Source: Candidatus Woesebacteria bacterium | GTDB taxonomy: Bacteria > Patescibacteriota > Microgenomatia > UBA8517 > UBA10165 | Length of the DNA stretch: 33,606 nucleotides | Assembly: GCA_002686465.1 (NCBI GenBank) | Contig: NZCP01000044.1 | Coordinates: 1 to 33,606, forward strand | Direction of reading: 5' to 3' | Shown here: positions 7,316-29,784 of the stretch, one piece after another | Position numbering within the stretch: the first letter of the stretch is position 1 | How the letters are laid out: each line of letters opens with the position of its first letter | Translations under genes and position numbers: made by a program | Notes under the pieces: generated by a model | Databases searched by the model: none | Seen by the model: only the letters and a program-made list of their open reading frames with translations | Told to the model about the DNA's origin: nothing

Positions 7316-7461
7316 CCGAGGCCTAAAAGGCCTCGGTTTCTCTCGTCAAGAGAAAACGGTTTGATCACTGCTTCGCTTCATCCCCGCTGAGCGGGGTTCT
7401 CGCGAAGTTTGAATAGAAAATTAGCACAAAAAAGAGGCATTTTAGCCCGATTTATCGGGCC
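7316..7461. other. Cluster of four short hairpins between the 7527-8156 methyltransferase gene and secA
   Basis: CCGAGGCC-TAAAA-GGCCTCGG (7316-7336), TTTCTCT-CGTCA-AGAGAAA (7337-7355), CCCCGC-TGA-GCGGGG (7382-7396), GCCCGA-TTTA-TCGGGC (7446-7461). Confidence 0.7.
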
Positions 7462-18438: not shown

Positions 18439-19215
18439 TTACAGCACTGGCTCTGCAACCACAATTGATCTCTTCCACGTCGTTCCTGGTGGCCAACAAG
18501 TTTGCAAAATTAGACGCTGTGACCCTTCTTTTGCATTAACAAGCCAGGAAATATCATCTGCGTCTACAACATGCTTTTCAGAAACCCTGTACTTGTAAAG
18601 TTTGTCCAAGAAGAAGATATAGATCTCATCATTATCCTCTGGAGAGAGCTCACGGAGAAGATAAAAAACAGCATTATATTGACTAATATTCCAAGGGGTA
18701 TTAGTTGAGTGGGCGAAAAGATAAGTTCCTCCTTCTGCCCCAGGAAAAGAAGACCCAGCTGCATGCGCAACACCTTCTGATAACGCATCCATATAGGCAT
18801 CTTGATCTCCCGGATCAACGTTTTCCAAAATTTTCGCCTTAGCACCAATCTTCGGGATGTAGACAGAGAAATTTGTATCAGAAATACCCCATTCTTGTGC
18901 AAGCCTTTGGGCAATTTCTCTATCCCGATCTTTTGAGTCTGCTAATACTTGGTCTACGAGCACCTGGTCTTCTTGGTGTGATCCACCCATCATCTGTTCC
19001 CACCTAAACGAAAGCTCTGCTGATACAATTGGGCGAAATGTAAAGATCAATCCAGCAAGTCCGGCAACAATAAACGCAGATCCAATTACACTCGCAAGCC
19101 GGCCAGTCCTAATTTTATCTATCCAAGACCTAGCAATCTCCTGGCTCGAGACAACAACCTCACCACGTTGGTTTTGCCATCCCGCATCATAGACAACACC
19201 ATGCCCTCTAATCAT
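18439..19215 (-). CDS. Sortase family transpeptidase
   Basis: N-terminal TM; catalytic His in GGTYLFAHSTNT, catalytic Cys/Arg in LILQTCWPPGTTWKRSIVVAEPV. Confidence 0.9.
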   Translation of the reverse strand: MIRGHGVVYDAGWQNQRGEVVVSSQEIARSWIDKIRTGRLASVIGSAFIVAGLAGLIFTFRPIVSAELSFRWEQMMGGSHQEDQVLVDQVLADSKDRDREIAQRLAQEWGISDTNFSVYIPKIGAKAKILENVDPGDQDAYMDALSEGVAHAAGSSFPGAEGGTYLFAHSTNTPWNISQYNAVFYLLRELSPEDNDEIYIFFLDKLYKYRVSEKHVVDADDISWLVNAKEGSQRLILQTCWPPGTTWKRSIVVAEPVL

Positions 19216-22144
19216 TTTTTCTCCGTAGTACCAATAGTAGTAGAAATCCGCCAGCCAGAATGAAACCTGCATATTCTAGGAGTTGCGGCCAGAAAATTAT
19301 CCTAATCTTACCACCCTCCCCCAATACCCACCCATTGGCCCAATTATTAACCAATACATGCTCATTAATCTTTTTTGGAATGAAACCATCCCATGTAAAA
19401 GCAATCCAACCTTTATGATACGCTTGTGATAAAACTAGTGTGGAATTTTCTTTTACTTCTATTTCGTAGTAGCTAGAATTAGGGTGATAAACATTGCCAG
19501 CCTCATGATAAATCGCCTCGCTCTGAGAATCACCACTGCGTAGAGCTAGCCCAACAAGAAACTGATAAGGAATCGGGTTGACCGTGACTTTTCCCACCTC
19601 ATTAACTGCTTTCTCGTCTCCAATCGATACATTGTCAAAATGTAAAGTGTATCCTAACCCATCCTCTTCCATTGGTGGCTGAACAAAATATGATGTAAAC
19701 ATCTTTGGACCTTTTGGCAAATATGTCTCTAGGTCTGCTCTCTGTGAGTTCAAATTCTCCATCCAAAGAAGAATAGGTCTTCCTGAAATATTTTTGCTCT
19801 CGACGTTTATAAGATAGGCAAATTTGTGGGGTAGATTTGGTAAGAAAAATGATTTTTCGCCACCTGCCTTTGAGGCATCATTTAACTCAGCACTGAAATA
19901 GCCATACACTTTAGGTACCTTAACTTGCAGCTCCCATCCGTCAAAATATATCTCCGGGTCTTTGTATTCAATCCCGCCTAGGTCACTTGGGTCAACCCAA
20001 ACCAATTGCTCTTGCCAACCTAAAGGAACGTCTAAGTGATATCCAGCCAAGTTTTCTGGAATAGTTTTCTTGAAAAGAAAATGATCATCTTTATCCTCAA
20101 TTTCGAATTCCAAATCCTCCTGTGTCTTACCAGTAAAAAGTGATCGGAAAGGATAGTAAGTAGTGGTAGGTAGTTGGTAGTGAGTAGTTGGATTAGAAAT
20201 GTATCCCCCACTTCCCTCAAATCCCACATCATAGTTATTCCATTTATATGCCGGTTCGATAACCGGAAGGTTTTCTGCCAAGAAAACAAAGTCACGAAGA
20301 GGTGTTTCAAGATCAACCTCATAAATTCTAATATGGCCAAATTCTTGAGAGAGGCTCACTTTGTTTGATTGAACTAGCATATCGGATAGTTCATCAAGAT
20401 AGGTAGTCTTTGCAGAGGAAGGATTAATGACACTTTCATCAACTAACAGCCATTGAATTTGATATTTTTCCAGAACGTTTTCAAATAAAGAAAGATTTTT
20501 GGAGTAGGTGGCGTACGAAATCTCCCAATAATAATTTTCATTGTAAGAAGACCAACGGTCAAATTCACGATCTAGTATTGGCTGACGTATTCCAAACCAT
20601 CTAAAACCGGCTCCCTCGTAACCCCATGTATGATATACCCAACCCCAAAAAGTGTGAACTGGAAACGGAGCCACTCTGCCGAACTCTTCTTTTTTTTCAA
20701 ACCTTTCAAATACACTAAAGTATTCCCTCGGAATCTCGGCCTTCATCGTAGAGCTCATTAAATTGCCAGAAAATGCTGGAAGCATATAGTAAAAAAGAGC
20801 AGCTAGAATAATAAATGGCACACAAAACACAACAAGTTTTCGTCTTCCTAACTTTTTGACCAAAAAGTTCAATGCTATAGCAAAATAAACCGCGTAAGAA
20901 AACATCAATAAAATAGAAAACTTTGTAAATGGGAAACGTAAAACCTCTCTAAAAAGGGGCGAGCTTTCTCGTAAAGAATGGAACAAACTACTGATGCCAG
21001 GAACATTATTGGAAATTGCAAGGAATGAAATTATGAAAACAGGTAAAACTGCAAGGCCATGTTTCCTTTTCTTTAGAAGAGAAAGGATAAGTCCAAAAAC
21101 CACAAGCAAGAAGACAGCATGCCCAACTAAAAGAACAGCCGGAGTTTGGAGATGAGAATCCCATTCGTCAAATAGATCAACAAACTCACCTCGCTCCGCG
21201 TCATAATCTCCCCAATCAAACAAAAAGTTCTTGAGAAGCGCTGTATCGGCAATAGTGCCAAACTTTTTTCCTGTCAGAAAGGCTTTGTCTGAAAATTGCG
21301 AGTGTATCTTAGACAGGCCAATATCCTGTCCGTTATTGACTACAAAGTAAACACTTGGCAACAGCCAAAAACTGTTAAGTGCTATAGTTGTCAGAACTAT
21401 CAACAGTCCACGATAAATATTCTTCTTTATCCTCCAAAAAGTTAAGACTCCAACGTACAGTAGCAAACCAATAAAATAAGCAAAGAAAAGTGTTGGCGTA
21501 TGTGCAATAGAGGTCGAGAAAACGGTTACAATAGAAAAAAGAAGTAAGTTTTTCTTCTTACCATCATTGATATATTGTGTGGCAAACAAAAATAACCAAG
21601 GGAGGGTAGCAAAATGGGTTGCAAACATCTCCAAAGGCACATAGTAGTGCTGCAAGACCCCAAGATTTAAAAAATAGACGAGAGATCCACCAAATGAGAC
21701 TATTTGTCGACGAGAAGTCGGGACAAACTGGAAGACTACTCTCTCTAGGAAAAAGTAAACTCCCAAAGTACCAAATATGATTGTTAAGAAAAAGTAGAAA
21801 TAGCGAAGGAAGGGATCTGATGAAAAAAGCGAGAGGAGATAGTAAAGAATTATCCTTGGCAGTTCGCTAGCATGGGCTTGTGATGCAACTGCACCAAGAC
21901 CTTGGTGTTCTTGCCAAACACCGAAGAAAATACGTTTAAAATAAAGTCCGAAATTAAACTCAGGATGCAGCGTGTCCCAACCAGAAAGCCAAGTTCCTGG
22001 TTGATAGTTAGTCCATGCCAAAAGAACACCGACAAGGGCCAAGGCCAGAACAAAACCTTTGCCTCTGATCTCACTCCATAACAACGGCAGCAATTTGGCG
22101 ACTAGTTTTTGTAAAGCTAACACAATTGTTTCCTTTGAAAACAA
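19208..22144 (-). CDS. Very large multi-pass membrane protein, GT-C glycosyltransferase-like (arabinofuranosyltransferase/YfhO-like architecture)
   Basis: 978 aa; about a dozen hydrophobic segments in the N-terminal half, large extracytoplasmic beta-rich part, C-terminal TM; YQPGTWLSGWDTLHPEF is an early conserved-looking segment. Confidence 0.65.
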   Translation of the reverse strand: MFSKETIVLALQKLVAKLLPLLWSEIRGKGFVLALALVGVLLAWTNYQPGTWLSGWDTLHPEFNFGLYFKRIFFGVWQEHQGLGAVASQAHASELPRIILYYLLSLFSSDPFLRYFYFFLTIIFGTLGVYFFLERVVFQFVPTSRRQIVSFGGSLVYFLNLGVLQHYYVPLEMFATHFATLPWLFLFATQYINDGKKKNLLLFSIVTVFSTSIAHTPTLFFAYFIGLLLYVGVLTFWRIKKNIYRGLLIVLTTIALNSFWLLPSVYFVVNNGQDIGLSKIHSQFSDKAFLTGKKFGTIADTALLKNFLFDWGDYDAERGEFVDLFDEWDSHLQTPAVLLVGHAVFLLVVFGLILSLLKKRKHGLAVLPVFIISFLAISNNVPGISSLFHSLRESSPLFREVLRFPFTKFSILLMFSYAVYFAIALNFLVKKLGRRKLVVFCVPFIILAALFYYMLPAFSGNLMSSTMKAEIPREYFSVFERFEKKEEFGRVAPFPVHTFWGWVYHTWGYEGAGFRWFGIRQPILDREFDRWSSYNENYYWEISYATYSKNLSLFENVLEKYQIQWLLVDESVINPSSAKTTYLDELSDMLVQSNKVSLSQEFGHIRIYEVDLETPLRDFVFLAENLPVIEPAYKWNNYDVGFEGSGGYISNPTTHYQLPTTTYYPFRSLFTGKTQEDLEFEIEDKDDHFLFKKTIPENLAGYHLDVPLGWQEQLVWVDPSDLGGIEYKDPEIYFDGWELQVKVPKVYGYFSAELNDASKAGGEKSFFLPNLPHKFAYLINVESKNISGRPILLWMENLNSQRADLETYLPKGPKMFTSYFVQPPMEEDGLGYTLHFDNVSIGDEKAVNEVGKVTVNPIPYQFLVGLALRSGDSQSEAIYHEAGNVYHPNSSYYEIEVKENSTLVLSQAYHKGWIAFTWDGFIPKKINEHVLVNNWANGWVLGEGGKIRIIFWPQLLEYAGFILAGGFLLLLVLRRKND

Positions 22145-22147
22145 AAA

Positions 22148-23122
22148 CTAGTTTCGCCAGTTGCTGTAAACCTCTTCCCAGTCTTGTGTGCGATCTCCTT
22201 CTCGACCCTGAATTTGCCTAAGAACTGACAAAGCGTGGGTGTTAGTATCATAGTAGACCACAGTCAATTGGGCACATCCTTCTGCTCCACAATTCGTATC
22301 GCCGGAGTGACTCACCTCGACCTTTTCTAAGAACTGGTTCTGTGACACAAAGGCAATATTTGGCCTTTTCTTATCAGGAGGATAGACCGAAGCTTCAACA
22401 TGTCCAGCTACGTAGTTACTCAAGCTAACGGTTGTATTTCGATCTGTACCTTGCTTCCCATCCGGATACAACCCTCTTGAAACAAAAAGATAGTTATTGT
22501 TTTCGGCATACGGCAACTTAACCACTTTATCGCGAAGTTCAAGATCCATCTGGCCACCCGAGATCACAACAAATCCGCCTTCTGGTAAGTTTATAGAAGC
22601 ATCTGGACTATTAATAATTCCAGATCTATCTTTGTCGAACAAACCTCCTGGTTCGGCAAGAAAAGCTTCTGTACCTTTACTAATGGTGTTCTCAAAGATC
22701 TTGTCATTGCCTGTAAGAACTTCAACAAGCTTAGCAACTTCAACAACACTTCGATCTACCTGATCTGGAATGTCACCTTTAATCCTAACCTCCTGTCCTT
22801 CTGCAACCATCACCGAGACTACTTTTACCTCTGGTTTCTCGACTACAAGTGAAGCTTTTCTCTCAACTACAACCTCCCTGGGCTTCTCTTCGACTGCAGC
22901 TTCGGCTCTCTTCACACGGTCTACCCTGGCTGCTGCCATAGCTTCATGGGCTTCGCGCGGCAGATACGGATATCGACTCGCCCAGTAACTAACAGTTGTA
23001 GGATCCTCATCCTCGCCAGCATGAGCTCGAGGAACTTCTAACTTCCCCAAGGCTGCAGTTGCACCAAGACCAACCAAAAACGCTCTCCTGGTTAACTTTC
23101 CTAAAATATTTTCTTTTGCCAT
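22148..23122 (-). CDS. Secreted protein of unknown function with Tat-like signal peptide
   Basis: N-terminus MAKENILGKLTRRAFLVGLGATAALGKLEVPRAHAGEDE: twin-Arg motif TRRAFL, hydrophobic core, AxA-like site; ATG preceded by GGAGGTGAG. Confidence 0.75.
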   Translation of the reverse strand: MAKENILGKLTRRAFLVGLGATAALGKLEVPRAHAGEDEDPTTVSYWASRYPYLPREAHEAMAAARVDRVKRAEAAVEEKPREVVVERKASLVVEKPEVKVVSVMVAEGQEVRIKGDIPDQVDRSVVEVAKLVEVLTGNDKIFENTISKGTEAFLAEPGGLFDKDRSGIINSPDASINLPEGGFVVISGGQMDLELRDKVVKLPYAENNNYLFVSRGLYPDGKQGTDRNTTVSLSNYVAGHVEASVYPPDKKRPNIAFVSQNQFLEKVEVSHSGDTNCGAEGCAQLTVVYYDTNTHALSVLRQIQGREGDRTQDWEEVYSNWRN

Positions 23123-23140
23123 CTATCTCACCTCCTTCAA

Positions 23141-23227
23141 GGTCGCCTCTGGCGACCGCAGTCCGCCGATAATCGCCCCTCAAGGCGTGTACGAATAGTA
23201 CGAGAAGCCTTGAGGCAAGATTGGGCG
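23141..23227. terminator. Two hairpins between the LPEAG-protein gene and the Tat-like gene; the second is long and composite
   Basis: GGTCGCC-TCT-GGCGACC (23141-23157); CGCCC...CCTCAAGGC...GTAC-GAATA-GTAC...GCCTTGAGG...GGGCG (23174-23227). Confidence 0.55.
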
Positions 23228-23232
23228 GGACA

Positions 23233-23865
23233 CTATCGTATTCTAAACCTTACCAAGTACATACCGATAGCCAAAACAAAAAGTGATCCAAATGCGATTA
23301 GCCAGTTCTCTGCTCCTGCTTCGGGGAGAGCTTTGGGCTCTACTTTTTTACCAACTTTCTTCTCAAGGCAAACTTGTGATGTATCACGATCATGATTATC
23401 TCCAGATCTTACCTCGGCCGTATTAACAATACAAATAAGGCTTTTGTCCGAGGGTAGCGCATCCTGGGATACTTTAACTTTTATCTCTCGCTCCTCTGAT
23501 TTTCCAACCCCCAAGTCTTTAATTTCAAACGAAGTACTACCAGAAACCAAGGTTAGTTGGGACGGAAGACTGTCGGTAACGTCAACCTTATCAAGGTTAT
23601 CATCCCCCACATTTTTTATTTTTAATCTGAAAGTGATCTCATCACCTGGAGCAAACTTGTGAGATGTGATACCGAGGTTGTCAACAAACTTTCTTCCTTG
23701 GGAATCCCAAACCTCTTTATCTATTTGAAGCTCTCCTGTTTTAACACAAACTTCTCCACCACCATATTGGGCTTCACAACGAACTGCGGCTTGGGTAGTT
23801 TTGGGAAGGAGTAAGAAAAAGCTCGCTAGTGTACTAAATACTACTATTTTTAACCATTTGTTCAT
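23233..23865 (-). CDS. Secreted DUF11-like repeat protein with C-terminal LPEAG sorting signal
   Basis: Signal peptide MNKWLKIVVFSTLASFFLLLPKTTQA; FRLKIKNVGDDNLDKVDVTDSLPSQLTLVSGS (DUF11-like); C-terminus LPEAGAENWLIAFGSLFVLAIGMYLVRFRIR. Confidence 0.82.
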   Translation of the reverse strand: MNKWLKIVVFSTLASFFLLLPKTTQAAVRCEAQYGGGEVCVKTGELQIDKEVWDSQGRKFVDNLGITSHKFAPGDEITFRLKIKNVGDDNLDKVDVTDSLPSQLTLVSGSTSFEIKDLGVGKSEEREIKVKVSQDALPSDKSLICIVNTAEVRSGDNHDRDTSQVCLEKKVGKKVEPKALPEAGAENWLIAFGSLFVLAIGMYLVRFRIR

Positions 23866-23966
23866 ACTCAATAAAAAAGCCCATCGGGTGACAGGCACTG
23901 ATATCTTAGAGGATAGGTATAGCTTTGTCAAGAAGTCTATATAGTACTGAGCTTGCAAGCTTGCTA

Positions 23967-23994
23967 TTGCAATTTGGAGAAAAAGGTATATAAT
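23967..23994 (+). promoter_or_regulatory. Sigma70-like promoter for the LPETG gene
   Basis: TTGCAA (23967-23972), 16-nt spacer, TATAAT (23989-23994). Confidence 0.6.
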
Positions 23995-24004
23995 GCCCCA
24001 TAAC

Positions 24005-24089
24005 TAATCACGAAACGTGATTAAGCTAGTTTCCAAAGGAAACTGAACTAATCTCCAAAGAGGAGATTAAGATAATCGTAAGCGCGATT
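24005..24089 (+). promoter_or_regulatory. 5' leader made of four consecutive hairpins
   Basis: TAATCACG-AAA-CGTGATTA (24005-24023); AGTTTCC-AAA-GGAAACT (24028-24044); TAATCTCC-AAAGA-GGAGATTA (24049-24069); AATCG-TAAGCG-CGATT (24074-24089); each separated by exactly 4 nt. Confidence 0.8.
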
Positions 24090-24096
24090 TGAAAAA

Positions 24097-24507
24097 ATGG
24101 AAGAGCAAGAACAACAAGAACAGAAACAAGAGCAGCAAGGAGTTGGCCTTCGAGCCAGAATCGCTCCGATCTTGCCGTTACTAGTCGGTGTCGCAGCATT
24201 ACTAGTAGTAGCATTAGTTGTAACTTTAGTAAGGCAATCTGGCGAGTCGGAAGCTCCAGAAGTAGAAACTACACAAACACCAGAAGAGGGCCCTGCTTTC
24301 AACTTTATTGAACCAACCTCTGAACCAGCACCATTCCAACTTCCGGGAGTTAAAGAAAGTATGGAGGTTGAAGCATCTGAGGTGGCTGAGCCAAAAGTTG
24401 TTGAAAAACTTCCAGAAACTGGTCTTCCAGCCTTTGCAGTTGGTATAGCCTCAGCCGGATTAGTAGCAATCGGGCTACTCTTCAAAAGAATTACAAGAAA
24501 AAGGTAG
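24097..24507 (+). CDS. Small membrane/surface protein with N-terminal TM and C-terminal LPETG sortase signal
   Basis: MEEQEQQEQKQEQQGVGLRARIAPILPLLVGVAALLVVALVVTLVRQ ... VVEKLPETGLPAFAVGIASAGLVAIGLLFKRITRKR. Confidence 0.85.
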   Translation: MEEQEQQEQKQEQQGVGLRARIAPILPLLVGVAALLVVALVVTLVRQSGESEAPEVETTQTPEEGPAFNFIEPTSEPAPFQLPGVKESMEVEASEVAEPKVVEKLPETGLPAFAVGIASAGLVAIGLLFKRITRKR

Positions 24508-29573: not shown

Positions 29574-29663
29574 ACGTACGAAATCACAGATTTCTACGTT
29601 GCTGAAACGTAAATCACTGATTGTACGTTTCGCAATGTACGCCTAATTTTACCATTTTTAGGC
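29571..29663. other. Three consecutive hairpins immediately upstream of tRNA-Gln
   Basis: GCAACGTA(C)GAAATC-ACA-GATTTCTACGTTGC (29571-29602); GAAACGTAAATCA-C-TGATT(G)TACGTTTC (29604-29631); GCCTAA...TTAGGC (29641-29663). Confidence 0.65.
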
Positions 29664-29667
29664 TTGA

Positions 29668-29784
29668 AAATGAATTACGCGATTAACTTCATAATTAATC
29701 ATTGAGTTAAATACGTATTTTATTCATAAGCAGAGCTTGACTCCGTTTGAATAAATTCATGAATAAATTCAGCAGCAAACAATT
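29668..29784. repeat. AT-rich intergenic element, diverged copy 2
   Basis: aaatgaattacg...ttaaatacgtattttat...tcagcagcaaacaatt, colinear with 27525-27584 but longer; includes tandem GAATAAATTCAT. Confidence 0.45.

Follow-up and report, generated by a model that had tools for sequence, protein, structure and literature searches.

What are four consecutive hairpins, set one after another between a promoter and a start codon, doing in the leader of a small surface-protein gene, and how did they come to be there? The locus lies in the 0.9 Mb genome of an ultrasmall uncultured bacterium (G000), on contig C44, whose 33,606 nucleotides are referred to here as the window. The gene behind the leader (24097..24507, plus strand) encodes a protein of 136 aa with an N-terminal membrane anchor and a C-terminal LPETG sorting signal. 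The C-terminus, LPETGLPAFAVGIASAGLVAIGLLFKRITRKR, comprises the LPxTG motif, a hydrophobic stretch and a basic tail, is conserved in the orthologs, and has the features by which the protein is predicted to be an LPXTG sortase substrate; a TIGR01167 search did not report the protein, and the genome holds two sortase genes. Its divergent partner (23233..23865, minus strand) encodes a DUF11 protein with an LPEAG sorting signal, whose orthologs show 45-52% identity. An apparent surface-protein cluster extends over window positions 18439-24507 and consists of a sortase, a large membrane protein, a secreted protein, the DUF11-LPEAG protein and the divergent LPETG protein. The leader of the DUF11-LPEAG gene has, on the minus strand and a few nucleotides before the ATG, a terminator-like hairpin with a U6 tract (window 23879-23896), which is possibly an attenuator of that gene.

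Architecture and folding of the leader

The four hairpins, all perfectly or almost perfectly paired, occupy the leader from a sigma70-type promoter (TTGCAA-16-TATAAT, 23967-23994) to the ATG at 24097. A consensus scan places the -35 box TTGCAA at 23967..23972 and the -10 box TATAAT at 23989..23994, in the context TATATAATGCCCCATA, both on the plus strand, with a predicted transcription start at about 24000-24002; hairpin 1 would therefore begin roughly 3-5 nt past the 5' end of the transcript. Hairpin 1 (24005..24023) has 8 bp and a loop AAA (-6.5 kcal/mol alone); hairpin 2 (24028..24044) has 7 bp and a loop AAA, with an optional U-G pair (24027-24045) that brings it to -6.9 kcal/mol and shortens the flanking spacers from 4 to 3 nt; hairpin 3 (24049..24069) has 8 bp and a loop AAAGA (-8.8 kcal/mol alone); and hairpin 4 (24074..24089) has 6 bp, one of them U-G, and a loop AAGC (-4.0 kcal/mol alone). 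Their centres are spaced 22, 23 and 22.5 nt apart, and all four loops are A-rich. The first-pass annotation had described these inverted repeats, their loops, the 4-nt spacers AGCT, GAAC and AGAT, the 7 nt between the last repeat and the ATG, and the promoter, and all of this was correct when we re-checked it.

The hairpin string is real and goes beyond chance. RNAfold, which the first-pass annotation had proposed as a check, recovered exactly hairpins 1-4 (-29.9 kcal/mol, z = -5.56, with 0 of 200 shuffles as stable), and the z-score of the leader fold lay at about -5.6 to -5.9. Pair probabilities were mostly 0.87-1.0 in hairpins 1-3, with 0.79 for the outermost pair of hairpin 3 and 0.44 for the U-G of hairpin 2, and ranged from 0.65 to 0.96 in hairpin 4. 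When the 96-nt leader was shuffled 20,000 times with its dinucleotide composition preserved, no shuffle had four hairpins with 6 bp or more and four shuffles had three; the 30 stem pairs observed compare with at most 20 in these shuffles. A whole-genome ranking of folds is by itself uninformative, because z-scores just as strong come from lone terminators and tRNAs that belong to neighbouring genes. The automatic gene list used for that ranking contained an antisense ORF in place of the LPETG gene, so the leader of this gene was scored separately.

Structured leaders include riboswitches, RNA thermometers and attenuators, and here the 3' arm of hairpin 1 could partially pair in an alternative way with the 5' arm of hairpin 3 (16-nt arms, 75% complementary). 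We nevertheless consider such a switch highly improbable. A search of Rfam 15 gave no match above the gathering score for the leader, the only matches in the window being two tRNAs; no hairpin is followed by a U-tract, and no plus-strand terminator site was reported at 24005-24089; the model hairpins stay unchanged from 20 to 50 C; and there is neither a Shine-Dalgarno sequence to mask nor a closed start codon. In the model, the unpaired probability around the AUG is 0.76 against a mean of 0.50, which corresponds to the 98th percentile of the starts in this genome. The missing Shine-Dalgarno sequence is itself ordinary in this genome, since SD-like 4-mers are just slightly enriched, occurring at 31% of starts and at 22% of control positions.

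Kinship of the four units

The first-pass annotation had considered the stems mutually different and the array not a simple tandem duplication. The first statement holds in part and the second is partly wrong, for the units are related: the 5' arms of hairpins 1-4 share 64% identity, above that of shuffled arms (p ~3e-5). Hairpins 1 and 3 have in common AACTAATCwCsAAA (86%) and GATTAAGmTA (90%), in copies 44-46 nt apart. The former corresponds to a direct repeat of 24002..24015 with 24046-24059 on the plus strand (family D1), which we read as a trace of tandem duplication, and the latter to a second such trace, 24019-24028 with 24065-24074 (family D3). The TAATC arm also recurs in hairpin 4, so that this half-site is present in three of the four hairpins. 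Because the 5' arms are alike and hairpins 1 and 3 share their flanks as direct repeats, the array is most readily explained as an old tandem duplication that has decayed with its pairing retained, and it probably arose by repeated copying of one hairpin.

Aligned from the outermost pair inwards, hairpins 1-4 read TA, TG, TA and (TT) at position 1; AT in all four at position 2; AT, GC, AT and AT at position 3; TA in all four at position 4; CG, TA, CG and CG at position 5; AT, TA, TA and GC at position 6; CG, CG, CG and TG at position 7; and GC, CG and CG at position 8, which hairpin 4 lacks. Thus at four of the eight pair positions (3, 5, 6 and 8) the units differ on both sides while the pairing is intact, which points to the hairpin, and not a DNA half-site, as the feature that was retained. 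These paired differences are no proof of selection on the RNA, because template switching at quasi-palindromes can also yield perfect palindromes.

The same comparison bears on the proposal that the palindromes are DNA operators, arrayed directly behind the promoter and bound by a dimeric transcription factor. Their location near a promoter in a divergent intergenic region and the recurrence of TAATC would suit an operator, but the inner stem positions vary and yet remain complementary up to a loop of 3-5 nt, a pairing that a half-site does not need. Only two other intergenic TAATC...GATTA palindromes occur in the genome, neither of them repeated, which gives no sign of a regulon, and the relative G004 has the promoter without these palindromes. 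An operator array is accordingly improbable in our assessment. Of the two readings offered by the first-pass annotation, the one that takes the array as an RNA element is thus supported, with mRNA stabilisation as its most likely role, and the operator is disfavoured.

Distribution within the genome and among orthologous leaders

A uniqueness scan covered 901,311 of the 901,573 bases of the genome on both strands and sought runs of three or more hairpins whose last member ended 2-40 nt ahead of an ATG. It returned this leader, with its four hairpins, and one other match made of three weak hairpins (L045); a sample of about 1.0 Mb drawn from the genomes of three relatives gave one further weak match. 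No comparable four-hairpin array was found at any other gene of the genome, nor was a second copy of the array sequence, for which reason a dispersed palindromic (REP-like) repeat was rejected. Comparison of the leader DNA with 57 genomes of the order gave just short A-rich or chance matches. The first-pass annotation had suggested looking for the same architecture before other sortase substrates; where the loci extended to the gene starts, no hairpin strings were seen before the other LPxTG genes of the order. Literature searches on leaders with tandem hairpins yielded nothing relevant.

Other repeated or palindromic structures were observed along the way. Three identical 23-nt hairpins, TATTTTGGCATCCAGCCGAAATA, lie in tandem at L043 5234-5316 (G000:C16) and constitute a different hairpin array. 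A stem-loop element about 57-72 nt long, with the form GTTTGATCACTGCTTCG...hairpin...CGAAGTTTGAATA, is dispersed in four copies over G000 (window 7358-7416; L045, minus strand, 2400; L081, 1221; L083, minus strand, 7462) and has one copy in G003 (G003:C3:140816-140877), and an exact-pattern search of 55 other genomes of the order gave none; its copies stand in both orientations relative to genes, and in one of them the outer stem is altered on both sides (CTCCCA/TGGGAG). A palindrome cluster adjoining a tRNA gene at window 29575-29700 (CGTACGAAATCACAGATTTC..., GTACGTTTCGCAATGTAC ...) is single-copy in the genome.

The A-rich loops of all four hairpins (AAA, AAA, AAAGA and AAGC), repeated in related units at regular centre-to-centre intervals, could be imagined as the docking site of a regulator that binds RNA, recognises such loops at a spacing of about 22 nt and controls the translation or stability of this surface-protein mRNA. 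We find this unlikely: no similar four-hairpin array lies at any other gene of the genome, the loops are not kept in G004, and there is no free ribosome-binding site to regulate, the start being open.

Searching with the LPETG protein by itself gave no close relative, and orthologs were therefore traced by way of the DUF11 neighbour and with a profile built from four sequences. G004 and G005 have an LPxTG gene with two membrane segments in the same divergent position; the divergent DUF11/LPxTG pair is thus also seen in these two genomes. More distant LPETG orthologs lie at other places in G001, G002, G003 and G006. The promoter is kept in orthologs as TTGCAAT(TT) and TATATAAT, the former standing ahead of the ortholog in G004, G001 and G005. 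Of the 38 positions in the promoter stretch, 29 are shared with G004 and 27 with G001, and TATATAATrCCCCATA is common to this promoter and that of G004. This conservation supports the predicted start near 24001. The leaders behind the promoter differ. That of G004 has two hairpins of 9 and 11 bp with other sequence (ATAGTTTT/AAAACTGT and ACAGTTTTCTT/AAGAAAATTGT), both running into GTAAGTAAAA, and two such hairpins appeared in 37 of 5000 shuffles; they too are duplicated, separately from the array described here. The G005 leader has one hairpin, not beyond chance, and those of G001, G002, G003 and G006 have none. Global fold z-scores are about -1.1 for G004 and -1.6 for G005, and the -4.1 of G003 reflects pairing of an 18-nt leader with the start of the coding sequence and not a leader hairpin. 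A CTGCC motif suspected in the ortholog leaders was absent among the enriched 5-mers of this genome.

Across the orthologous leaders, therefore, no covariation of one and the same structure was found (none in G001-G003, one hairpin in G005, two different ones in G004). The first-pass annotation had taken homologous leaders without conserved pairing or spacing as evidence against its reading, and at the level of the family this is largely what is seen, G004 alone being comparable, with a different pair. Since the promoter is conserved in the orthologs and the leader is not, the array is a lineage-specific structured leader and not a conserved RNA family, regulatory RNA or operator. The gene does not need hairpin strings, because they are absent from the G001, G002 and G003 orthologs and not significant in G005. 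The case shows that a leader's hairpins can be duplicated and changed in sequence from one relative to another even as the promoter stays recognisable.

Such turnover also fits a neutral product of duplication, in which palindromes were duplicated and perfected by replication template switching and are merely tolerated by the leader. The related units in tandem, the complete turnover of hairpin number and sequence beside a lasting promoter, and the uniqueness of the array in the genome all agree with it. Against it, all four units are still paired despite their differing sequence, the array ends 7 nt before an ATG that it leaves open, and the same leader of G004 has its own duplicated hairpin pair. 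We judge a neutral origin possible, though doubtful.

A candidate barrier to decay from the 5' end

Our preferred reading, to which we give somewhat less than even odds, is that the array is a lineage-specific, transcribed leader of duplicated hairpins that most likely acts at the 5' end of the mRNA. Its function would most likely be that of a 5'-end roadblock or insulator, which stabilises the mRNA and leaves initiation unhindered. Tandem duplication would have copied a hairpin unit of about 22 nt, probably including a two-hairpin unit of 44-46 nt, and later sequence changes would have preserved the base pairing. The four hairpins would fold independently in the transcribed leader, and hairpin 1, some 3-5 nt from the predicted end, together with the next three, would form an obstacle to 5'-end-dependent decay by an RNase J-type exonuclease and a pyrophosphohydrolase. 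Because the hairpins would fold on themselves, the AUG without a Shine-Dalgarno sequence would stay single-stranded and translatable. We infer the transcription start, the folding in vivo and the stabilising role alike. The genome has an RNase J-like ORF of 552 aa with an RMMBL domain (L257), and no match to RNase E/G was found in it; by gene content alone, mRNA decay in the host would be sensitive to the state of the 5' end. A roadblock does not account for the number of hairpins, since a single one at the 5' end would be enough to protect the message.

There is little firm knowledge of how Patescibacteria degrade mRNA or select translation starts. As a natural construct this leader is clean, offering a promoter, four hairpins and an open AUG lacking a Shine-Dalgarno sequence, and it could be transferred to a laboratory strain to ask if hairpin number sets the life of the mRNA. 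A bolder idea, and in our opinion a long shot, is that in Blackburnbacteria-like bacteria the leaders of this gene repeatedly expand by hairpin duplication and that hairpin number tunes mRNA life or output; if true, decay would be set by an evolvable RNA rheostat of variable length, lying between a conserved promoter and an SD-less start codon.

Three kinds of known systems resemble this array. REP/MITE-like dispersed elements are likewise palindromic, with duplicated units, and intergenic, but the present array is single-copy in its genome and confined to a single leader, where it lies between promoter and ATG. In operator arrays bound by dimeric transcription factors, too, regularly spaced palindromes stand beside a promoter, whereas here the half-site is not conserved across units or orthologs and pairing is kept instead. 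The third kind is the stabilising stem-loop. In B. subtilis, which has RNase J, hairpins close to the 5' end confer stability on long downstream mRNA, and the exonuclease activity of RNase J is said to explain the protection by a 5' roadblock (PMC3997798). Known examples include the 5'-terminal stem-loops of E. coli ompA and papA and the stabilising leaders of ermC, atpE and cryIIIA (PMC3997798, and references therein). Like these, the present leader has a hairpin near its (predicted) 5' end and an accessible start, in a genome that encodes an RNase J-like protein; it differs from them in having four short, related hairpins, no Shine-Dalgarno sequence, no conservation between relatives, and a stabilising effect that we infer.
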